DNA of 44,364 bases, taken from Aureispira sp. (lineage in GTDB: Bacteria > Bacteroidota > Bacteroidia > Chitinophagales > Saprospiraceae). Below are positions 4,530 to 15,764 of this stretch, one piece after another (positions within the stretch are counted from its first letter, which is position 1; every line of letters begins with the position of its first letter). The notes under the pieces were generated by a model. The model worked only from the letters and a program-made list of their open reading frames with translations. It was not told the DNA's origin and did not search any database. A program made the translations under genes and the position numbers. The stretch lies in NCBI GenBank assembly GCA_024222455.1, contig JAAEPD010000137.1:1-44364 (forward strand). Reading direction: 5' to 3'.

Positions 4530-5351
4530 ATCATTTTGAACACTCTCCTCTTTCCTTTTTGGCTTTGTCAATTCCTTTACTACCCTTTTGGGTAATAAAG
4601 GATGTACCATTTGTCCTACATAGTTTTTAGGAAATTTCTCTTTTATTCCAAACCGCTCTGGTTCATGATCGGGGCAAGTATATGTTCCAAACATAATATC
4701 CATCAGTGGTGATATATTAGCATAGTTTCCTGCATCTCTATCCAAATCATGATGCCAATGATGTAGCTCAGGTGCTCCTATCAGCATTCTCAAAGGACCT
4801 ATAGGCAATCTAACATTAGAATGTATATAAATGGCCCATATCCCTCTAAAAGCAATAAACCCAGCCAATATATCCAAAGAAAACCCTAACACAAAGGCAG
4901 GTAAGTTGATTAAACCAATAGTATAAATAGAATCTAAGGGATGTTCTCTATGAGCAGCCAACCAGTCCAAATGTTCTGCACTGTGATGCACCTTATGAAA
5001 ACGCCATAAGATATCAACTCGATGTTGCAATCTATGCGCCCAATAGATAATTAAATCACTCAACACGATCACTTCTATAGCTTGCAACCACAAAGGTTGA
5101 TTGGCTACAGCTGTTCTAAAACTTTGAGGAATAATACCATCTAGCCAAAAACTAAAAGAGCTTAAGGCCCACAAAACTAACCAGCCCCAAAGCAAATATT
5201 GCCCTAAAAAAAAGCACAGATCTAATCCCCAAGAAGGTCTAAAGAATCGTTGTTTTTTAGCCGAAAACACCTTTTCCATTGGAAAAAAGGTAATGACCAA
5301 AAAGAAAAAACTCAAAACGGTGGCTTCTACTGAGCCTAAAAAACTTTCCAT
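4512..5351 (-). CDS. Sterol desaturase / fatty acid hydroxylase family protein
   Basis: The 279-residue integral membrane protein carries the eight-histidine di-iron signature of the family: H106-R-L-Q-H110, H119-K-V-H-H123, H134-R-E-H137 and HHWHH at 197-201. Several hydrophobic spans surround these motifs. Members hydroxylate or desaturate lipid chains or sterol-like molecules at the membrane using O2 and a di-iron centre. The particular lipid cannot be read from sequence; in this phylum, sphingolipid or ornithine-lipid hydroxylation are possibilities. The gene follows the SKS-repeat protein gene by 39 bases on the same strand and probably shares its transcript. Its 3' end overlaps the convergent small gene by 18 bases. 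Confidence 0.85.
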   Translation of the reverse strand: MESFLGSVEATVLSFFFLVITFFPMEKVFSAKKQRFFRPSWGLDLCFFLGQYLLWGWLVLWALSSFSFWLDGIIPQSFRTAVANQPLWLQAIEVIVLSDLIIYWAHRLQHRVDILWRFHKVHHSAEHLDWLAAHREHPLDSIYTIGLINLPAFVLGFSLDILAGFIAFRGIWAIYIHSNVRLPIGPLRMLIGAPELHHWHHDLDRDAGNYANISPLMDIMFGTYTCPDHEPERFGIKEKFPKNYVGQMVHPLLPKRVVKELTKPKRKEESVQNDLKQDH

Positions 5352-5390
5352 GCACTTATTTTATTTCTGTTGTTGAAGGTCTATATCTCC

Positions 5391-5945
5391 CTAGTCTCTA
5401 GGTTCTATCATTGCTCCTGATTTGGAGCTATGCATGATTCTTTTCTTGGTATTATTCTTAGTATTGGCCTCCTTCCTTTTATTATTTTTCTTTTCTTGTC
5501 GTTTTCGCTTCTTTTCTTGTCTTTTTTGCTGAGCTGGACTCAAGACTGTTCCTGATTTGGAACCTCCCATTATTGTTATTGGTCTTGTTGTTGGCTTTTT
5601 TGAAGTATCAGGATCTTTTATCCTTACATCCCTTCGCATGTCCATAGACTTAGAACTACTCATAATAGTAGTAGGTTCAAACACACGCCCCGATTTAGAA
5701 CTTGGGGCAACAGTTGATTTATCTATAACAAAATTAGAATCCGTTAAACTTGGAGTTATATTAGAATCTAGTCCACTTCTACCAAAACCATCAATCATAG
5801 AAGCAGAAGACACATTGCCATCCATAAAACCCGATCTATAGGCGACAAAAGACACTAATAAACTCGCAAAACACAAAATAGTAATAGCTTTTACTAAGAA
5901 GTTAGGGCTAGGAGCTGTTGGATTAGCTTTTGATTTGGGATGCAT
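5391..5945 (-). CDS. Membrane-anchored protein with repeated SSKSG motifs
   Basis: The 184-residue protein has one hydrophobic segment near the N-terminus (about residues 17-38, LVKAITILCFASLLVSFVAY) and then a low-complexity, probably disordered tail. The tail repeats a short motif four times: APSSKSGRVFEP, IMSSSKSMDM, IMGGSKSGTVLSP and IMHSSKSGAMIEP. A very basic stretch (QKRQEKKRKRQEKKNNKRK) lies before the last copy. The repeats look like short linear binding motifs. No known family is recognised. The downstream hydroxylase gene is probably in the same transcript. Confidence 0.6.
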   Translation of the reverse strand: MHPKSKANPTAPSPNFLVKAITILCFASLLVSFVAYRSGFMDGNVSSASMIDGFGRSGLDSNITPSLTDSNFVIDKSTVAPSSKSGRVFEPTTIMSSSKSMDMRRDVRIKDPDTSKKPTTRPITIMGGSKSGTVLSPAQQKRQEKKRKRQEKKNNKRKEANTKNNTKKRIMHSSKSGAMIEPRD

Positions 5946-5990
5946 AGATTGTTATAGTTGTTTTTTTAATAAAATACGGCTAAAAAAGAG

Positions 5991-6023
5991 TTATCGCCAT
6001 ACAGTAAAACTATATGGCGATAA
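5991..6023 (-). terminator. Rho-independent terminator after the OmpA-domain gene
   Basis: A perfect 11-base stem (TTATCGCCATA / TATGGCGATAA) encloses an 11-base loop. Read on the minus strand it is followed by CTCTTTTTTAG, and it lies 56 bases past the stop of the gene ending at 6079. Confidence 0.8.
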
Positions 6024-6078
6024 TCTATATATTAAAAATACATTATAATATCTTAAATATCAAGTATTTTAGTATAAT

Positions 6079-8502
6079 TTAACAACCTGGAGGTCGCTTA
6101 CCGATACCAGATTCTTTTACTAATCGAGCCAATAACTTCTCATAGTAATCTAATAATAGCTTATGGATATTCAAGTGAATCTCGATACGACGATAGTCGC
6201 CATCTTTCTCATCTGATGGATGCTCATAAGCTCCAATATCGATTGGCACTTTCATGAAATCTAACTGACCTTTTACAGTCCATGCACGAGCAATACCCAA
6301 CTCCATATTATTTTCTAGTTTTCTATCAATAGCACGAGTTGTTTTTTGTAGAGTATCAACTATTCCACCATTCTTCCCTAAAAAGTGTGTAAATGGTGTC
6401 CCTTCAGCTATGCCCAAAGACTTGTCATAAGTACGACCAGAGAAACGGTGTCCATCAGTATGACCTTCTATATAAATTGTAAATTCTTCCTTACAACGCA
6501 TATTTGCCTCACAGTAAGCTTGCAATACTTCAGTATCTACCCAACTAGCAATTTTTTTGTAATACTCAGGATCTCCCATTTTAGCCAAGTTCACACGTTG
6601 ACAAAGGATAGGTTTGATCAAGTATTTCACACCAATATATCCTAATGGCTCATATTCTACTATAGTAGGACATTCCATTTTATCGGTATTCAAATCACCT
6701 CTCATTACAGCAGCTGATCTTTCTCCAAAACGCTCACGCTCTTCGTGTGTCTCTTTGCGAGCACGCAAAACCAACTCCCAATAACGACATTGCCAGATTT
6801 TAGTACGCAAACGGTTAACATGACAAGTCAACTCTGTATCGTATTTTAAGCTATGCTTCTTTTTGAGTGCATCAATTTTTTTTATGTATGTTTCGCCCTC
6901 TACACAAGCGTCTACAGACCCCTTGATTACCCAAGATTTAGTTTGTGCAATCTTATCGCAATAGAACTCTACCAAACGGATTTCAGACATCAACGTAGTA
7001 TCCTTTTTAGGGAAACCTTCTTCTGGTGTTTTATCTTGATCTAGAGGTACAAATTTGCTCCAAGCATCGTTCAAGTCAGCCAAATCAGCTTCTGACTGTT
7101 GTACAGCAGCTTGTAGTGCCTTTACCTTATCTTCCGTTTCGCTATCTAACTCAGGACTATCTTTTTCTTTTACCTTATCTATGTCAGCCAAACGTTTTTT
7201 ACCACGCTCACACATATACATAGTTCCATCCATAGTATAAGCCTTGATTACAGCTACAGGATCACAGTAGATAAATCCAAACTTCTCGCTAGTTTTATCA
7301 TCTGGCAAGAAATCTTTCCATGCTTTGTTTAAGGCCGCTAAGTTTTCTTCTTCATCCTCAACCAAAGCCTTAAGATTTCTATGCTTTTCTTTAGTTTCAG
7401 AATCCAAACTAGGATTATGCTCTTCAATTACTTTTGCAATATCTTTCAAACGTTGAGCACCTTTCTCACAAACGTTGATAGTACCATCCATGATGTAAGC
7501 TTTCACCAATGCATCTTTATTACAAGGATACTCAAAAGAGAATTCTATTTCGCCATCTAGTTCATCATCTGGCAAGAAATCATCCCAAGCTTTTTCTAAT
7601 ACAGCTACATTCTCTTCAACACCAGCAACTTGACCTTCCAACCATTTTATTTTCTTGGCTAAATCCGCTGGAATCGGGTGAGAGTTTTCTTCTTCTAACT
7701 CTTTGATAAGCTTCAACATTTCAGAACCATTCACACAAGGATCTACAGCTGCACGCAACATATAGATTTTCATGTTTGGAATAGTATAACAATCCATCAT
7801 TGGCATATCATCTTCAAATCCTGAAGACTTATCTGTCTCTATGAATTTTTCCCAAGCTGGATTCAATTTGGTGTGAACAGCAAAAACTTTCTTCATTTTA
7901 GAAATTCCAGATTTCAAACCACCTACTTTATCCATTTTGAAGGACTTAATCTTAGATAGTTTTAATACTGGCTGAAAGCTTTTTTCAGACTTAGTCACAT
8001 TACCTTTACAGTAATAAGCTGTAGAAGTCAAAAAGAAATATTTAGCTAACGTCCCTTTTTCACAAACTGTTCTGCCCTCTTCAGCATCCTTCAATTCGCT
8101 TAAACTGACTTCACTCCCAGTTTGGAACTTGATCCAAAGTCCATCTACTTGACGGTAAGCAGCCATTTTTGTTTTTAGCTCCTCATACTTTTCCGTGAAT
8201 CTAGGAATAGCGCCATAAATATCTTTCCCAATTTCGTCTACATGACGTGCATACTTCATTGCTTCAGACATTTCCCCTTTACAGAAGAAATTGTTGCAAT
8301 ACATCAAACTATACTTTGCATAATCAGGTTTTTGTGAACGTTTATCTGGTTCATCTAACTCACTAATACTCGCAGTTTTTGGATCACTCAAGAATTCTAT
8401 CCAAGTATCCTCGAAGTTGACTACTCCTTGAGCCTCTGTAGTGTTTAAAAAATAGCCCATGCAGACTAGCAAGCATAGGAAATTACGTAGGTTCTGTTTC
8501 AT
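6079..8502 (-). CDS. Six-repeat envelope protein with C-terminal OmpA domain
   Basis: The 807-residue protein has a signal peptide (cleavage near NTTEAQG). Six degenerate repeats of about 86-115 residues follow, each with a W..F start, a tyrosine/cysteine segment and a KGxxxxCExG...L..I helix. The two clearest adjacent copies start AWDDFLPDD and AWKDFLPDD. The last about 200 residues are OmpA/MotB-like: EGHTDGHRFSGR, an ELGIARAWTVKGQL helix matching the NxxLSxxRA region, and DYRRIEIHL matching NRRVEI. This domain normally binds peptidoglycan diaminopimelate. An outer-membrane-to-wall tether or scaffold is likely; the repeats' role is unknown. It is monocistronic, with a clear terminator downstream. 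Confidence 0.75.
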   Translation of the reverse strand: MKQNLRNFLCLLVCMGYFLNTTEAQGVVNFEDTWIEFLSDPKTASISELDEPDKRSQKPDYAKYSLMYCNNFFCKGEMSEAMKYARHVDEIGKDIYGAIPRFTEKYEELKTKMAAYRQVDGLWIKFQTGSEVSLSELKDAEEGRTVCEKGTLAKYFFLTSTAYYCKGNVTKSEKSFQPVLKLSKIKSFKMDKVGGLKSGISKMKKVFAVHTKLNPAWEKFIETDKSSGFEDDMPMMDCYTIPNMKIYMLRAAVDPCVNGSEMLKLIKELEEENSHPIPADLAKKIKWLEGQVAGVEENVAVLEKAWDDFLPDDELDGEIEFSFEYPCNKDALVKAYIMDGTINVCEKGAQRLKDIAKVIEEHNPSLDSETKEKHRNLKALVEDEEENLAALNKAWKDFLPDDKTSEKFGFIYCDPVAVIKAYTMDGTMYMCERGKKRLADIDKVKEKDSPELDSETEDKVKALQAAVQQSEADLADLNDAWSKFVPLDQDKTPEEGFPKKDTTLMSEIRLVEFYCDKIAQTKSWVIKGSVDACVEGETYIKKIDALKKKHSLKYDTELTCHVNRLRTKIWQCRYWELVLRARKETHEERERFGERSAAVMRGDLNTDKMECPTIVEYEPLGYIGVKYLIKPILCQRVNLAKMGDPEYYKKIASWVDTEVLQAYCEANMRCKEEFTIYIEGHTDGHRFSGRTYDKSLGIAEGTPFTHFLGKNGGIVDTLQKTTRAIDRKLENNMELGIARAWTVKGQLDFMKVPIDIGAYEHPSDEKDGDYRRIEIHLNIHKLLLDYYEKLLARLVKESGIGKRPPGC

Positions 8503-8841: not shown

Positions 8842-9477
8842 CTACAAAAACTTAGAAAATGTACCTTTAATTCGCTCTGGCAACAAAGGGTGCTCTGCTA
8901 TTATTTTAGTTTTAGCAAGGTCAGCTTTTCCTCTCGATATCATTCCACTCACTATATCCTGAATAGTAATCAGACCAGAATACTCATCTTCTAATACAAT
9001 AGAATCGCCTGCTTCCACTAAGCCTTCTTGCAAAACTTTATAATAAATTCCATGATAGGCTGCTGCATAAAACTGGTCAACCATATTGTCTATCCCAAAT
9101 CGTATATTCAACTTGAAACATGGTATTCGAGGTTGAATAGCTTGGATAATCGCCTCTCCTACCTTATATATATTGCCAACCTTCACATCCTTATCTAGCA
9201 TCCCTTGAGTTGTTAGATTCTCCCCAAAAAGGCCATAAGACCAATCTGTTCTATCCAATATTGTTTTCCAATAATCATAATAACTCTGATCATAAGAATA
9301 CACCGCCTTATACTCTCCACCATGATTTTTTAAATCTGCTTGTTCATCATTCTGTACATGCGTTTTTTTCAACAAGATAGGTTCATCTACAGCAGTTTTA
9401 AAAATACCTGTAGATAGCTCTTTCCCTTTCCATTCCACTCTCCTTTTTGTACCTGTATTGACTGATAATAAGTTCAT
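8842..9477 (-). CDS. MOSC domain protein, YiiM-like
   Basis: The 211-residue protein matches YiiM-type MOSC proteins, which act on molybdenum-cofactor-linked sulfur chemistry; E. coli YiiM protects against N-hydroxylated base analogues. Visible family features are a KNHGGEYKAVYSYDQ segment near residues 50-64, FGENLTT at 84-90 and QPRIPC ending at Cys120, the likely sulfur-carrying cysteine. A C-terminal helical extension (about 160-211) fits the three-helix domain of YiiM. The gene starts 30 bases after the LRR gene stops, on the same strand, so it may be the last gene of that operon. A second, different MOSC gene lies on the other side of the operon. Confidence 0.8.
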   Translation of the reverse strand: MNLLSVNTGTKRRVEWKGKELSTGIFKTAVDEPILLKKTHVQNDEQADLKNHGGEYKAVYSYDQSYYDYWKTILDRTDWSYGLFGENLTTQGMLDKDVKVGNIYKVGEAIIQAIQPRIPCFKLNIRFGIDNMVDQFYAAAYHGIYYKVLQEGLVEAGDSIVLEDEYSGLITIQDIVSGMISRGKADLAKTKIIAEHPLLPERIKGTFSKFL

Positions 9478-9507: not shown

Positions 9508-11682
9508 TTATTCCCATACAATACTGCTCCATGGAATAAGTTTCCGGATACGAGGTTTCATTTCTTTAGGTACAGGGTTTTCTTCCAAATAAAGAGCTGT
9601 AAGATTTTCTAAATTTGCTATGCAATCTGGAATTTTTTCTATTTGATTTTTCGTGAAAGATAAAATGATTAACTCTGTTAACTGACATATAGATTCAGGT
9701 ATAAATCTAAACTGGTTTTCATCTAACTGTAATGCGCTTAATCTATGCAACTGCCCTATACTAGTAGGTAGTATACCTAATTGATTTCTGTCTAAATATA
9801 ACAACTCCAAGCTTTTTAATTCTCCAAAATTTTCTGGCAATTCAGTCAATTGATTGGCATCTAAATGCAACTCTCTCAAGTTTTGCAACTGACCTAAGCT
9901 CGTAGGTAATCGTTTCAACTCATTATCAGTCATCTCTAACTTATCCAAGTTTTTTAGTTGGCCAATAGCAGCTGGCAGCTCTTCCAAGAAGTTTCCAGAA
10001 AAATCGAAGATAGATAAGTTTTTTAACTCAAAAATGCTCTTGGGTAGTTCTAACAAATTACAATACCCCAATTTTAAGCTATTCAAGTCCTCCAACTTAG
10101 AAAAATCTATGTTAATTTCTTTATATGGATTGATACTTAAATTCAAATCTACCAATTGACCGAGTTCATCCATTCCCTTAGGGGTACTAACTAAGTCACA
10201 AGCACTTATATTTAAGCTTTTTAGTTTAGTCAATTGACTAAAATCAAGATCTATTTTTTTTAATGAATTTGAATTTAAGTTAAGTATTTCCAATTTTTTT
10301 AACTTAGAAAAATCAAGATCTAAACTAGCTAGATTATTAGATTCTAAGTTCAAATCTTTTAACTCTGAAAGCTGAGAAAAAGTACTTGGTAATGTTGTAA
10401 GATTATTATAAGATGCATCTAGATACTCGAGTTTAGTAAGTTGGGCAAAGTCTTCAGGCAATGATGTTAGCTCATTATCAGCTATAGCTAAATAGTTTAA
10501 TTCTGTCAACTTAGAAAAATTAGGAGGAAATTCAGTTAACCCCATATTATCCAAATTTAAGTACTCCAATTTACTCAACTTAGATAAATCATTAGGCAGT
10601 TTTTTCAAATCAGGATTTTTAGACAAGAGCAATACCTCTAAGTCTTTTAGCTTTGAAATATCTTCTGGTACCTTTTCTAGTCTATTATCACTAATATTCA
10701 AAACCTCTAATTTACTCAAGGCCCCTAAACTATTTGGTATATCTTCTATTAGATTGTCATTTAGATCCAAAACAATCAGCTCTTTCAACTGCCCTAACTG
10801 AGTAGGAATACTTTTTAAGTAGTTATCTCCCAAAAGCAAAATTTGTAAGTTTGTATGTTTAAAAACTTTAGGAGGTATTTTACTTAATTGTTCTCTCGAT
10901 AAATTTAACGCTCTAATATTTTCGTCAAGGTCTTGAAGACTCTCTGCAACTGGGTATTTTTTGCCTGTAACATCTATATAAAAAGCACTGTCTTTATGTA
11001 CAACTCTAGCATAGCCTAAATCACTAAAAGGTTGAGCTTCATCATACTGATAATCAATAATAACATCTGCATCCTTATTGATATACCCATACTTTCCATT
11101 CTTATAAGCCAAAGCTAATTTCCCATCATAAAAATAAAAAGCATTAATAATTTTTTCATTTTTTAGCTGCTCAAACTCTGCTTTAGCCAAAGCTTCAGCC
11201 GTTTTGGCTTGTGCAGCCTCTACCTTTGCTAAAGCTGCCTTAGTTTTTATCTGCTCTGCTTCTACCTTTAGCAAAGCCTGCTCTGCCTCAGTTCTAGCTA
11301 CATCTGCCTCTTTCTTTGCCACTCTCGCTTCTTCCAGCGCTTCAGCCTGTTTTAGCAATGCTCTTTCTGCTCGTTTCTGAGCAGCAGTTGCTTTAGCCTG
11401 TTCTTGCTCTACCTTCCTAAGTGTCTTACCCAATGCAACCTTTTGTTCTTCTATATTTTCAAAAACCTTGACTAGTTTTCCATCCACCTCTTGCCCAAGT
11501 TCTGGATCACAAGCACGTGCAGCTAAATAATTAAAGATTGCTTTTTTGTAATCCTTTTCCTCTATGTTTTTATCTGCTGTTTGAAGCATGCAATCACAGT
11601 CATTGGCAGGGCATTGGGCCTGCATTGTCATGGAGATCAAACTCAGTAGCAAAACAAAATATCCTATCTTACAATAGCTCAT
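9508..11682 (-). CDS. Secreted leucine-rich repeat protein with coiled coil (putative sensor)
   Basis: The 724-residue protein begins with a signal peptide (MSYCKIGYFVLLLSLISMTMQAQ). A TPR-like cysteine-containing segment (about 24-65) and a long alanine/glutamate coiled coil (about 75-175) follow. Next is one WG-like repeat (NGKYGYINKDADVIIDYQYDEAQPF). From about residue 250 there are 20 leucine-rich repeats of about 23 residues (L..L.L..N.L..LP), and the end is a PWSSIVWE cap. The Cys after AQ does not make a proper lipobox. The gene begins three bases after the STAND gene stops, so co-translation is very likely. LRRs bind proteins; by analogy with NLRs this is the likely sensor, but with an export signal it should lie outside the cytoplasm. 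That role is inference. Confidence 0.8.
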   Translation of the reverse strand: MSYCKIGYFVLLLSLISMTMQAQCPANDCDCMLQTADKNIEEKDYKKAIFNYLAARACDPELGQEVDGKLVKVFENIEEQKVALGKTLRKVEQEQAKATAAQKRAERALLKQAEALEEARVAKKEADVARTEAEQALLKVEAEQIKTKAALAKVEAAQAKTAEALAKAEFEQLKNEKIINAFYFYDGKLALAYKNGKYGYINKDADVIIDYQYDEAQPFSDLGYARVVHKDSAFYIDVTGKKYPVAESLQDLDENIRALNLSREQLSKIPPKVFKHTNLQILLLGDNYLKSIPTQLGQLKELIVLDLNDNLIEDIPNSLGALSKLEVLNISDNRLEKVPEDISKLKDLEVLLLSKNPDLKKLPNDLSKLSKLEYLNLDNMGLTEFPPNFSKLTELNYLAIADNELTSLPEDFAQLTKLEYLDASYNNLTTLPSTFSQLSELKDLNLESNNLASLDLDFSKLKKLEILNLNSNSLKKIDLDFSQLTKLKSLNISACDLVSTPKGMDELGQLVDLNLSINPYKEINIDFSKLEDLNSLKLGYCNLLELPKSIFELKNLSIFDFSGNFLEELPAAIGQLKNLDKLEMTDNELKRLPTSLGQLQNLRELHLDANQLTELPENFGELKSLELLYLDRNQLGILPTSIGQLHRLSALQLDENQFRFIPESICQLTELIILSFTKNQIEKIPDCIANLENLTALYLEENPVPKEMKPRIRKLIPWSSIVWE

Positions 11683-11685
11683 GAT

Positions 11686-13455
11686 TTATTGACAATTTTC
11701 TTTAGTTTGGGCAATCTCATTTAGTTTACCTTGATAGTAGGCTCGTTGTTCTGCTTGCAGCTTATAATCATCAATAAGGCTCTGAGCAATCGAGGTTGAT
11801 TTGTCTGCCAGCGAGATCACAGTAGAGCATTGCCCTGCACTTACATAAATAGGCAATTGATTATAGTATCGCTCAAATTGTTCTTCATAAAAAGCCCTAA
11901 GCAACTGATTAGATTCTTCCAGTTGATTTTCTAACAAAACCTCTGCTTTATGCACCTTTTGAGTCTCCAAGTACGCCCATACAGAGGCTATAACAGCTAG
12001 AATAGCAAAAATAGAGGCTATAAAACTCCTCCTATTTGCTCGCCCTCTCAGATATTTTTCTTGTGCTAATTGCTTTCGTTGCTCAGCCAACTCTTCTTCT
12101 TGCTGCTCTTTTTCCAGAGCTCGTTGTTTTCTTTCAGCAACCAGTTTTTGTTGTTGAGCTTTTTCTTCCTGTTCCTTTCTTCGCTCCTCATAAGAAGCTA
12201 ATATTGGTTCTACCAATGTATCATGAGCCACCTCATAAGCCAATCCCAAGTGTGTATTTTCTCTACGCAAAATACGTGTCCTCAAGATTTTAGTAAGTAA
12301 GGGTTTTGGGATATTATATTGTGTCAAGATCGAATTCTCTGCCAAACCTACACGTGCTCCACTCACAATCAGGCCTTCCTCGATCAGTATTCGAGCTGCC
12401 AATTGTTCCTCTGCATTACCTAATGTTGCTATTTTACGCCTATAATAACCCTCCAATATTTCTTGAATTCCTTCCTCTCCCCCCAAAAGATCAGGTGCTA
12501 CCCTATTCAGTTTTTGATCTTTTAATTTTTGCTCTATATGTTGACAAATAATCTGCAACTGAAAAGCCTCTATCTCTCCATTTTTATTACTCAACTTATG
12601 AATAATCAAATCCAAGGCATCAGGATCATAATCAAACTGAGGAACATTGAACTGATCACCTTCCAATTGAGCAGGTGAAACAATAGCATCAGTCGCCTGC
12701 TCTCGCTTGAAGGCATACAACTGGTAGCGCTTGTTTAGTATAGCAGGAATCGAATCACTTAAGCGATCTAATAAGCTCAACCGATCTGAACGAATTGCAA
12801 TAATAACTTTCCAATTTAGAGGTGTATTCCAATCATCTTTATGAGTATTAGAAGAAAAATTTTCATCAAAGAAATTTTGTTCTTCTTTTGCACCTGCATC
12901 AACAGTATTCTTTGCCAACAACTTAGGTACTCGATCATATACAATATCGGCTAAACAGTCCACCAATTCTTTTTGATCTTCCTCACTATGCAAAAAGAAC
13001 TCCTCAAACTGGTCTAAGATCAAGACAGGCATGATAGCCACCTCCTGCTCAAAAGGATAAGCTTTTAGATGTTCCCAAAGCAATGGTTTTCGACCTTTCA
13101 CATGATCTTTCAGCCGTTTTTGGCCCTGCTCTTTTATCCAAAAATGTTCAGCTAGAGACTCTATACTTTTTCGAAGGGATTCAGCTGGTGTTAATCCAGT
13201 TTTATCGCCCTCTCCTTTACCCTGAAAACGAACAGAAATAGGATGATATATATCTTGTTTGAGCAAAGGCATAATTCCTGCATTCAGCAAAGAAGTTTTG
13301 CCAATACCTGATTTAGCAAAAAGCACCATGAAGCGTTCAGCTTTGATCAGATCATGTAGTTCTCTTGTCTCACGCTTACGTCCAAAAAACTGCTTACGTT
13401 CATGAGGTTCAAAAGACCGAATACCAGGATAACGACTATATTTAGAGTTTTCCAT
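11686..13455 (-). CDS. Membrane-anchored nSTAND-type P-loop NTPase
   Basis: The 589-residue protein starts with the nSTAND1 signature YPGIRSFEPHERKQFFGRKRE. Its Walker A is AKSGIGKTSLL with Lys53 and Thr54; the first Gly is Ala. Walker B is PVLILDQFEEF with Asp148 and Glu151/152, and a sensor-like arginine occurs in IAIRSDRL (Arg222). A winged-helix end carries YEVAHDTLVEPI (about 407-418). A charged coiled coil (about 420-470), one membrane span (about 477-495) and a 95-residue helical tail follow. STAND ATPases are ATP-driven switches that oligomerise when a sensor is engaged. WD40, TPR or LRR sensors are usually fused; here the LRRs are on the next gene. It is placed between the CHAT and LRR genes with three-base gaps on both sides. 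Confidence 0.88.
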   Translation of the reverse strand: MENSKYSRYPGIRSFEPHERKQFFGRKRETRELHDLIKAERFMVLFAKSGIGKTSLLNAGIMPLLKQDIYHPISVRFQGKGEGDKTGLTPAESLRKSIESLAEHFWIKEQGQKRLKDHVKGRKPLLWEHLKAYPFEQEVAIMPVLILDQFEEFFLHSEEDQKELVDCLADIVYDRVPKLLAKNTVDAGAKEEQNFFDENFSSNTHKDDWNTPLNWKVIIAIRSDRLSLLDRLSDSIPAILNKRYQLYAFKREQATDAIVSPAQLEGDQFNVPQFDYDPDALDLIIHKLSNKNGEIEAFQLQIICQHIEQKLKDQKLNRVAPDLLGGEEGIQEILEGYYRRKIATLGNAEEQLAARILIEEGLIVSGARVGLAENSILTQYNIPKPLLTKILRTRILRRENTHLGLAYEVAHDTLVEPILASYEERRKEQEEKAQQQKLVAERKQRALEKEQQEEELAEQRKQLAQEKYLRGRANRRSFIASIFAILAVIASVWAYLETQKVHKAEVLLENQLEESNQLLRAFYEEQFERYYNQLPIYVSAGQCSTVISLADKSTSIAQSLIDDYKLQAEQRAYYQGKLNEIAQTKENCQ

Positions 13456-13458
13456 CTT

Positions 13459-14970
13459 TTATTGCTTTTTGCCTTCTTTATAAAATACAGGTCGTCCTCC
13501 CTCCGGAAAACTATGCAAGCCTACATGTGCCATAGCTTGGTCAAATGCACTTTGATAACTTCCTCCCGAAAATAAGGCTTGATAAAAACCCTGTGCAAAC
13601 ACAGTTGCCAGAGTATCATCTATTGCATTATTAGTCCCAATGACATTAGGAATATATTGTGCCAACACTTCTGCTTGTTCTTGCGAAAAACAAGCATTCA
13701 AGAGCACACAACTAATCCCTTTGAACTGGCTAAATAGATCTGCCAATTGTTTTCCTGTTACAAACTCTGCATCTCCTGCATCTCCCGAAAATATTAGCCC
13801 TGCACGCCCTGTTCCATGTCCCGAAAAATGTACAATTTGAGGCTGATGGTACAGCAAAACCTGTTGCAATCTGCGTTTATTAATATCCAAAATAGGTTGA
13901 ATCAAAAACTGCTCTCGCTCCGTCCCACTCATCAAAGCCTCTTGCACCATAGTGATCTCCTTATTCAACTTGAGTTTAGTAGTCTCTTCTGGGTTTGAGG
14001 TCATCAGCAATACAGTACTTGTGTTTTTGTCTGCATCAGGTTGTGGTTTATCTACATAAGAAGTATTTACAGCTAGATCTGGTCGATCTTTTACCCATTT
14101 TTCGTAGCCACTCACCAATTCATCTACAAAGACTGTAGATTTTTTATTTTCAATAAATTTAAAGCTAAAAGAATCTTCATAAAATTCTTTAGTTACCTGT
14201 GCACTCTTCCCTTCATTTATATAAAAAGCAGAAGACCCTTCTGATAATTTCAAACTTTTGAACAGTAAGGGTAAATGCCATGTATCTGGTTCAAAACCTA
14301 AAAAAAGATAGCTTTTTTCTCTATCACAATGACTCAAAATGCTCTTAGACAACTCAGACTTTCCTTCTAGAATATTCTTAATAAAATCAACTTGATCATC
14401 CTGCGTTACTACCAATGATTCTTCATCTGTATATTTCCCAAAAAGATTATACATCAAAGGTTTAGCTACTGTTATTTCGGGTAGAGGTACTTTTTGATGC
14501 CGAAGGTAGTTATAATGTATCTTTTCAGGATTTTTCCCTACTTCCTGAAAAGCTTTATATATAAATTTATCAGGGTTAGTATTGAGCACCATAGACAATG
14601 GCAATTGAGCCAATTTAGAGTAAATTGGTGGCACCTCTTTAGCTGTCATTTTGTAGAATTGATTCAGCTTTCCATGCAGAATAGCAGATTCTGAATCTGT
14701 AGCATGTACCCAACGTAAAGCAATATAGGCTAGGTTCTTCTTTTGTGTTGGATCATAGGGTATATTTTGGCTACTCAGTTGACCTGACAAGCCTGTAGAA
14801 AAATGTTCATTGATAGGCGCTTCTACTCCTCTAAAATTGACTGTAGCTAACTTAGGTCCTAATATAAGAATACATTTTTGTTGATATAAGCTTCTATATA
14901 TAGGTTCAAAAGTGGAGGTATCATCAAAGGATTCTTCAAAAAAATTATCTCCAAAAAAATCGTCTGCCAT
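13459..14970 (-). CDS. SIR2-like/CHAT fusion protein (putative protease effector)
   Basis: The 503-residue protein joins two domains. Residues about 20-290 resemble SIR2-like domains: ILILGPK (35-40), VLNTNPD (128-134, the TTNxD position), MYNLFGKYTDEESLVVTQDD (173-192) and YLFLGFEPDTW (221-231). The His expected in the LHG motif is Phe177, so NAD cleavage may be lost. Residues about 315-495 are a CHAT caspase-like peptidase with both catalytic residues: His385 in HFSGHGTG and Cys427 in LLNACFS. It has no signal peptide or membrane span, so it should be cytoplasmic. It is the first gene of the three-gene operon. By analogy with CHAT proteases in gasdermin and CRISPR systems it is the likely effector; its substrate is unknown. 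Confidence 0.85.
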   Translation of the reverse strand: MADDFFGDNFFEESFDDTSTFEPIYRSLYQQKCILILGPKLATVNFRGVEAPINEHFSTGLSGQLSSQNIPYDPTQKKNLAYIALRWVHATDSESAILHGKLNQFYKMTAKEVPPIYSKLAQLPLSMVLNTNPDKFIYKAFQEVGKNPEKIHYNYLRHQKVPLPEITVAKPLMYNLFGKYTDEESLVVTQDDQVDFIKNILEGKSELSKSILSHCDREKSYLFLGFEPDTWHLPLLFKSLKLSEGSSAFYINEGKSAQVTKEFYEDSFSFKFIENKKSTVFVDELVSGYEKWVKDRPDLAVNTSYVDKPQPDADKNTSTVLLMTSNPEETTKLKLNKEITMVQEALMSGTEREQFLIQPILDINKRRLQQVLLYHQPQIVHFSGHGTGRAGLIFSGDAGDAEFVTGKQLADLFSQFKGISCVLLNACFSQEQAEVLAQYIPNVIGTNNAIDDTLATVFAQGFYQALFSGGSYQSAFDQAMAHVGLHSFPEGGRPVFYKEGKKQ

Positions 14971-15185: not shown

Positions 15186-15731
15186 TTAAACTCTATCCAG
15201 CTTAATATAAGGTTTTTGGGGAAGTTCTACGATTATTTCATCAGCTATTCTCACAAGGCCACCTTCTTCTACAACAGCCATTACGCCAGCTTTTCTTATT
15301 AGAGTTCCATCTTCAGCCCTATCCAATACCGCTTTCATCAGCCCTTTGGCCAATCCATCTAACTGATGACAGGGGTTTCTTAAGCCTGTAATTCTTATTT
15401 TAGCTAAAGCCCCTATATGTAGGACAGTGTCTTTGGGCAAGGATAACAAATCGATTCCTTTAGTGGTAATATTTTCGCCCATTTCTCCTGCCTTAATCCC
15501 AAAACCCTTTTGTTTTAGTTCTTCATGCAGTTCTTGATGAATCAGATGAACCTGTCTTAAATTAGGTTGACTAGGATCTTTAGCTACCCTAGATCTGTGT
15601 TTTACTGTTTTTCCCAAATGCGCATCACCTTCTACCCCCAGCCCTTTGAGAAGCATTATTTCCTCCCACACAAATTTAGACATGCTATGTGTATCACTCT
15701 TGCTTAACGAAACAACTTTTGCTTTCTTCAT
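15186..15731 (-). CDS. MOSC domain protein (small, stand-alone)
   Basis: I place the start at the ATG at 15731 (MKKAKVVSLSKSDTHSM, 181 residues), because the upstream 11 codons do not look like family sequence. Typical MOSC features are VEGDAHLG (33-40), the RQVHLIHQELHEEL segment, AGEMGENITTKGIDLL (81-96) and GLRNPCHQL with Cys121, the likely persulfide carrier. Stand-alone MOSC proteins of this length are thought to bind the molybdenum cofactor or transfer sulfur; the substrate is unknown. It lies just past the rpsU terminator and 215 bases upstream of the CHAT gene on the same strand, so it probably has its own promoter in the short gap. Confidence 0.82.
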   Translation of the reverse strand: MKKAKVVSLSKSDTHSMSKFVWEEIMLLKGLGVEGDAHLGKTVKHRSRVAKDPSQPNLRQVHLIHQELHEELKQKGFGIKAGEMGENITTKGIDLLSLPKDTVLHIGALAKIRITGLRNPCHQLDGLAKGLMKAVLDRAEDGTLIRKAGVMAVVEEGGLVRIADEIIVELPQKPYIKLDRV

Positions 15732-15764
15732 CACTACTATATTTTGATCAATGTAGAAACACAA

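Follow-up and report, generated by a model that had tools for sequence, protein, structure and literature searches.

Gene organization and domain content

The 44,364-nucleotide stretch of Aureispira sp. DNA analysed here (GenBank assembly GCA_024222455.1, contig JAAEPD010000137.1, positions 1 to 44,364; hereafter, the window) carries on its minus strand, at 9508-14970, a unit of three open reading frames (ORFs) separated by gaps of 3 bp. In reading order, they encode a SIR2_2 and CHAT protein of 503 residues, an nSTAND1 NTPase of 589 residues and a WG and LRR repeat protein of 724 residues (Table 1), the candidate effector, switch and sensor of a receptor that would span the envelope. An original prediction had placed the STAND and LRR genes at 9508-13455, and both ORFs are intact there. 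The set of parts familiar from NLRs, namely a STAND NTPase, a repeat sensor and a death-type effector, is present in the unit, spread over the three genes. It departs from the NLR plan of sensor and NTPase in one cytosolic protein: the LRR has its own gene and a predicted export signal, and the STAND has a membrane span.

The domain assignments are firm for the NTPase (PF20703, 108.9 bits against a cut-off of 27.1, residues 9-437) and for CHAT (47.8 bits against 24). In the STAND, Walker A (KSGxGK[ST]S) and DQFEE are intact, as they nearly invariably are among its relatives. The CHAT domain has HFSGHG at 381 and NAC at 425-427, which we take to be the His/Cys dyad motif of the family, while F177 of the SIR2-like domain presumably occupies the position where active sirtuins carry the catalytic His. 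Compared with solved structures, the STAND profile matched sc-CC-6-95, OR280 and EngC only, and Foldseek returned ORC/Cdc6 proteins, the archaeal Walker-type ATPase 2qen and a plant resistosome, matches that indicate fold class only.

Table 1. Features of the three-gene unit, in window coordinates
Feature	Residues	Position	Strand	Basis
Upstream effector gene, 503 aa		13459..14970	-	SIR2_2 7e-10, CHAT 1.7e-12 (Pfam); no hydrophobic span
SIR2-like domain	127-248	14227..14592	-	Pfam
CHAT protease-like domain	335-481	13528..13968	-	Pfam; PDB match 8tl0 'CHAT domain-containing protein' 2.7e-13
nSTAND1 NTPase with one membrane span, 589 aa		11686..13455	-	ORF, Pfam, hydropathy
nSTAND1 core, predicted cytosolic side	9-437	12145..13431	-	PF20703, E 5.7e-31
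Walker A KSGIGKTS	48-55	13291..13314	-	G50, G52, K53, S55 invariant in 22 and 16 aligned STANDs
Walker B region VLILDQFEE	144-152	13000..13026	-	D148, F150, E151 invariant in aligned STANDs
Long helix, predicted cytosolic, NTPase to membrane	412-469	12049..12222	-	AlphaFold2 model
Basic patch RGRANRRS, positive-inside signal	470-477	12025..12048	-	Sequence, K+R counts
Single transmembrane span	478-496	11968..12024	-	Mean Kyte-Doolittle 2.36
Predicted periplasmic tail, helical stalk and hairpin	497-589	11689..11967	-	Tail alignment, AlphaFold2
TPR-like helical hairpin ending the tail, Cys543/Cys588 at its ends		11692..11829	-	AlphaFold2, 543-563/568-588
LRR/WG sensor protein, predicted exported, 724 aa		9508..11682	-	ORF, Pfam
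Predicted signal peptide (cleavage approximate)	1-22	11617..11682	-	Heuristic; adjacent genes of relatives
Candidate docking module, Cys-rich TPR-like hairpin (C24, C29, C31, C58)	23-59	11506..11616	-	Profile, HMM specificity, model 29-41/45-58
Long helix, 122 residues	60-181	11140..11505	-	AlphaFold2, low to medium pLDDT
WG-repeat beta module	about 183-250	10933..11136	-	PF14903 at 198-228, 9.8e-9; model strands 189-246
LRR solenoid	about 256-712	9547..10917	-	LRR_8 4.2e-53, LRR_14 2.7e-48; model

Membrane topology in the window and in its relatives

The STAND has one hydrophobic span, directly preceded by RGRANRR. Five K or R residues lie in the 15 residues before the span and two in the 15 after it (net charge +4 against -1). 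The LRR protein, whose ATG begins 3 bases past the STAND stop, opens with a short basic region and a hydrophobic run, followed by a candidate cleavage site between MQA and QC. Our heuristic accepts this start as a signal peptide with a cut after S17, but from the sequence a cut after A22 appears likelier. By Kyte-Doolittle hydropathy, the LRR protein has no membrane span.

AlphaFold2 models of the two proteins have a mean predicted local distance difference test score (pLDDT) of 85 for the STAND (16 aligned sequences) and 83 for the LRR protein (6 aligned sequences). In the STAND model, a helix at 480-539 comprises the span and a stalk, is weak around 471-500, and leads to a confident hairpin. 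In the LRR protein, two short helices are followed by the long one (pLDDT about 50-75), the WG sheet and the LRR solenoid. If straight, the long helix would measure about 183 Å and could hold the LRR far from the inner membrane. The features of the original prediction thus reappear with small shifts: its single span at 477-495 with the NTPase N-terminal to it, its tail of 95 residues (93 as measured), its LRR-protein signal peptide and its helical ends on both proteins.

Relatives were collected as loci from a set of 198 genomes, of which 56 gave any match (that of the window included, a patchy spread), and by a profile scan of genome contigs (best 80 of 421). Collapsing STANDs of at least 97% identity reduced 140 to 128, window included; 106 nonredundant STANDs are full length, and 105 have a testable region after the NTPase. 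Signal peptides were called by the heuristic, spans at a Kyte-Doolittle value of at least 1.5, and K+R were counted in the 15 flanking residues. A span follows the NTPase in 100 of the 105 (99 at a threshold of 1.6; L102 scores 1.55). Among the other five, L100 is truncated by a contig end; in L094 the span lies more distally, at 637-655, so that this protein is not counted as span-less; and L048, L062 and L079 have none. These last three are self-contained NTPases, none with an adjacent signal-peptide gene. K+R average 6.07 on the N-terminal side of the 100 spans and 3.43 on the C-terminal side, with an N-side excess in 91, a C-side excess in 4 and ties in 5. STANDs with span and fused sensor also occur beyond Bacteroidota, in records of Nitrosomonas, Acidobacteriaceae, Opitutaceae and Minicystis. 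In four loci (L091, at 6139-7146 with 4674-6101; L092; L147; L152), nSTAND1 is split into two adjacent ORFs of 335-336 and 466-475 residues, the span being in the second.

Split and fused sensors

Post-span tails were classed as short (at most 125 residues), medium (126-220 residues) or fused (longer). An adjacent gene, defined as co-directional and within 120 bp, is present in 25 of the 29 STANDs with short tails, and in 23 of these 25 (window included) it has a signal peptide, as against 191 of 693 other complete ORFs of at least 250 residues from the same loci, an uncurated set in which redundant loci were kept (Fisher P = 5.5e-11). One of the two misses, L132_4, has a visible signal peptide. 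The heuristic is also positive for the adjacent gene in 11/13 medium tails and 2/9 fused STANDs, for 6/117 upstream-type genes, and for none of 100 STAND N-termini.

The loci examined hold 46 long proteins in which nSTAND1, span and sensor are fused. Seven fused proteins were domain-scanned, the seventh being L062. The fusions place the sensor after the span, be it WG-LRR (L149, and L089 from the same contig), LRR (L043), WD40 (L097, L169 and L174, three of the seven) or YCF48-like/PDZ (L145). The separate partners are equally varied. Among 30 scanned, 12 are WD40-like (L112 below the curated cut-offs), six LRR plus one weak LRR, three WG, one TssR with WG, one FGE (L139) and two TPR (L088 below cut-off), and four have no domain. 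Secretion through the type IX system (T9SS) was also considered, and no T9SS sorting domain is among the Pfam matches listed for the sensors. The TssR-bearing partner (L047, 7616-10894), exported beside a transmembrane STAND, combines the candidate docking module described below with WG and a TssR-like part matched by four TssR models (TssR_VWA 5.6e-28); it is a possible decoy or monitor of type VI secretion.

The partner signal peptides, the N-side excess of K+R, the Cys pairs of the tails (below) and the post-span fusions support the claim that LRR and NTPase lie on opposite sides of the membrane, and a trans-envelope topology, with the NTPase inside and the tail and LRR protein outside, is very probable. 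The original prediction had named two contrary outcomes, a non-functional LRR signal and a cytoplasmic tail; at the level of prediction neither was seen, given the signal peptides of the partners and the predicted outside location of the tail.

The candidate docking module and the tail hairpin

Following the signal peptide, the exported sensors share a module of roughly 95 residues (28-row profile), composed of a Cys, a TPR-like hairpin, a YxAAxxC motif and a helix. It is common to sensors of unrelated kinds (LRR, WD40, WG, FGE, TssR). Hidden Markov models (HMMs) built from half of 23 seeds regained 12/12, 11/12 and 11/12 held-out members. The full HMM has 45 matches, duplicates included, among 1057 ORFs of at least 250 residues in the loci, and those outside the adjacent genes are locus duplicates, additional or truncated exported genes from the cluster in question, or a STAND tail. 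The adjacent gene carries the module in 22/25 short-tail and 7/13 medium-tail loci, but in 0/9 beside fused STANDs, and the fused proteins themselves lack it (0/46). In four loci (L076, L095, L099, L125), one STAND is followed by two tandem exported sensors with the module.

The module is present in 60 of 248 family genomes. Around its matches, 40 stretches were taken, at least four of which repeat contigs of the first set. A STAND is present in 27 of them, with a span in all 27; the remaining 13 consist of contig ends or of sensors that appear to be orphans (the HMM did not recover the module in L234). With the STAND HMM, 14 of these 27 STANDs give low scores, and they fall in a more distant nSTAND1 clade (one Pfam-checked); the module therefore serves STANDs of more than one lineage. 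Members of this clade with module sensors start with PFKFLD[AP] (L221, L222, L223, L228, L229, L232, L233, L243); two of their upstream genes were scanned, and CHAT was matched in L229 (1e-9) and weakly in L228 (0.0029). The signal-peptide heuristic passes 46/52 module genes of these stretches, a count that is not independent, as the module HMM partly covers the region.

Tail and module profiles align with each other as TPR-like hairpins (hhalign probability 50%, E 1.6e-4), and the module also matches consensus TPR structures. The original prediction had the two proteins meet through the STAND tail and the LRR N-terminus, a proposal that now gains a candidate contact in the hairpin at each end. 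A Cys pair, with one member 33-47 residues from the end and the other within the last 8, is found in 13 of 50 tails, compared with a mean of 0.44 and a maximum of 4 in 5000 shuffles. In the window, the pair (C543/C588) marks the two ends of the predicted tail hairpin, as C24/C29/C31 and C58 do those of the module hairpin in the sensor. Hairpins stapled by disulfides outside the cytoplasm would be expected to show such placement. The number of Cys residues is even in 38 of 52 tails, which is unremarkable, and no argument is drawn from this parity.

Upstream candidate effectors

An SIR2-like gene of the window type lies upstream of 87 of the 106 full STANDs, and three of the 19 lacking it are within 132 bases of a contig end. 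Of these 87 genes, 40 were scanned (E <= 0.01), and SIR2_2 was matched in all 40, EAD11 in 18, TIR_2 in 16 and CHAT in 3. Since the scanned genes vary in this way between EAD11, TIR_2 and CHAT, the CHAT of the window appears to be one of several output types; the possibility that all upstream genes are CHAT was ruled out (HxSGHG-type motifs in 3/87). The SIR2-like part is probably a scaffold. The PADLOC model of Thoeris ThsA matches it in the window at 2.8e-7, but unlike ThsA and other SIR2-like effectors, it has no His in the catalytic column in any of the 40 aligned rows, and it commonly stands beside TIR, CHAT or EAD11.

Related genes in the same genome

The genome of the window holds a second transmembrane STAND (L061), 51% identical over the aligned part, and partial copies. 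No co-directional gene directly follows L061, and an exported-looking ORF that starts 852 bases past it is without the module. Module genes are found on four contigs: contig 375, which has three intact genes in tandem and another interrupted by stops, and contigs 77, 657 and 140. The modules of the apparent orphan sensors are 42-61% identical to that of the window. In all 15 alignable pairs, identity is higher in the module than in the WG-LRR part (for example 85% vs 43% and 61% vs 41%; closest 61% vs 60%), as measured in local alignments that differ in length. Such a contrast would be expected of a common plug whose sensors diversify, but does not prove it. In L205 (7404-13061), three intact exported WG-LRR sensors and a remnant LRR ORF occur with no STAND within 18 kb around.

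Proposed mechanism and alternatives

The topology is well supported by the sequence, in which gene order, span, orientation signal, predicted signal peptide, module and intact Walker motifs can all be read. The steps that we infer beyond it, from localisation in vivo and physical docking through ligand binding and nucleotide switching to CHAT activation and a role in immunity, would be as follows. The LRR/WG protein would be exported by Sec and reside in the periplasm, its N-terminal Cys-TPR hairpin docked on the TPR-like hairpin that ends the STAND tail. A ligand on the LRR, either a product of an attacker or one of envelope damage, would alter the contact between tail and module, and the change would be relayed through the helical stalk and the single span to the nSTAND1 NTPase. 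The NTPase would then exchange nucleotide and oligomerise, and by assembling the SIR2-like/CHAT protein would activate it as an effector that damages either the invader or the cell itself. We consider it likely that a signal passes from the exported LRR via the tail to the NTPase, and the unit as a whole is probably a trans-envelope, NLR-like STAND receptor; a function in defence is favoured somewhat less strongly.

Several observations weigh against this reading. Nine of the 38 adjacent partners are without the module, 37 of 50 tails without the Cys pair and 23 of 52 without any Cys, and the position ranges of the pair were set after the tails were seen, which makes the contrast with the shuffles somewhat flattering. 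The signal-peptide heuristic is positive in 28% of the other ORFs in these secretion-rich genomes, and one of the 23 positives (L142_6) resembles a spurious ORF. PADLOC matches to the unit are weak and confined to single domains (mad8 1.5e-4 and chat 3.1e-8, besides ThsA), with no model matching the LRR protein. The genome of the window also encodes a span-less STAND-WG-LRR fusion (L062), suggesting that sensing of the LRR/WG type can be cytosolic.

The unit may have the same topology but serve as a switch for envelope stress, surface contact or development, with death-type effectors or proteolysis as output. Such a switch would fit the sensors seen, one of which is an entire TssR-like protein of type VI secretion while others consist of generic repeats, and it would also fit their expansion in tandem and as apparent orphans. 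We nevertheless consider it unlikely: CHAT, TIR and EAD11 are familiar from conflict systems, parts on both the sensor and the effector side are swapped between loci as in those systems, and the distribution is patchy.

A lesser prospect is that the exported LRR protein and the anchored STAND do not signal to each other, the span merely tethering a cytosolic sensor and the tail being a spacer. Poor conservation of the STAND tails (18% mean column identity) would accord with a spacer, and co-evolution of tail and module is not significant beyond that of the NTPase. Here the mirror-tree correlation, r 0.197 (P 0.042), falls to 0.144 (P 0.089) when controlled for the NTPase (n=27 pairs), a result that does not establish the docking proposed above. 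Independence of the two proteins is improbable, however, in view of the coupling of short tails with an adjacent signal-peptide gene, the natural proteins in which the span is fused to WG-LRR or WD40, and a dedicated module that is carried by several kinds of sensor and absent from fusions.

Very improbable, finally, is an ordinary cytosolic NLR, with translation of the LRR protein starting at an internal Met (18 or 20), or with its signal left unused, and the tail folded back in the cytosol: internal Met codons do follow the hydrophobic run, the signal peptide is a prediction and L062 is span-less, but the first ATG lies immediately past the STAND stop, in relatives this module is still preceded by an export signal of about 17-28 residues, and basic patch and Cys pairs put the tail outside.

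The trans-envelope receptor could also be part of a wider arrangement, which we offer tentatively. Many exported sensors (LRR, WD40, WG, FGE or TssR-like; STAND-adjacent, tandem or orphan) might all carry a common Cys-TPR plug and vie for a small number of transmembrane STAND hubs that fire interchangeable cytosolic effectors (CHAT, TIR, EAD11). The genome of the window would hold one such network, comprising its orphan sensors and L061. The arrangement would be analogous to that of sensor and helper NLRs, but across a membrane.

Relation to known systems

Eukaryotic NLRs, Apaf-1-like proteins and the Avs/bNACHT antiphage STANDs combine an NTPase switch, an LRR or WD40 sensor and a death-type effector, and STAND/NLR immunity is usually treated as cytosolic. 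Sensor and switch form one cytosolic polypeptide in these proteins, whereas here they are predicted to be separated by the membrane. A periplasmic sensor on a STAND, if true, would allow reaction before or during penetration of the envelope. In function, such a receptor would resemble a Toll-like receptor more than an NLR, and it would illustrate how a single-span helix can drive a STAND switch. With a candidate docking module that is separable, the swapping of sensors also becomes open to direct test.

The nSTAND1 conflict systems with FGS/EAD partners share the Pfam NTPase family and, in the portion of the account consulted, have variable effector and sensor parts (Kaur et al., 2021, PMC8195603). 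Their FGE-type (FGS) sensor also occurs here (L139). As described in that portion, STAND and FGS are fused in one protein, whereas here the exported sensor is separate and bears a candidate docking module. Neither an exported sensor gene nor such a module comes up there, and the terms 'signal peptide' and 'periplasm' occur 0 times. A membrane sensor (EACC1) feeding caspase-type effectors has been proposed (Kaur et al., 2020, PMC7159879); in the part of that article covered, the protein with the span is a small constant component, while in the present systems the span is in the STAND and the candidate sensor is a separate exported repeat protein. In Thiohalocapsa, some STAND/CLec targets diversified by diversity-generating retroelements are predicted to be periplasmic (Dore et al., 2024, PMC10907252). 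According to the sections available, these too are putative sensors with STAND NTPases, but NACHT and CLec of one protein share a compartment there, unlike the parts split across the membrane here.

Because the EACC1 proposal and the periplasmic STAND/CLec targets, as far as those excerpts go, precede this work, envelope-facing conflict systems are not new as an idea. The expectation in the original prediction that a periplasm-to-cytoplasm path would be new therefore holds in part: fusions of nSTAND1, span and sensor are frequent and periplasmic targets had been predicted, but the split design of STAND and exported sensor is the part not found. No exported sensors paired with transmembrane STANDs were found in the literature searched, which mostly excluded subscription papers and makes the absence weak.

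Neighbouring genes

The unit is bordered on either side by a MOSC-domain gene (8842-9477 and 15186-15764); the two genes differ from each other and lie on its strand. At 6079-8502, the window encodes an 807-residue protein with a signal-peptide-like start, repeated AW..F[LV]P units and no Pfam family above cut-off.

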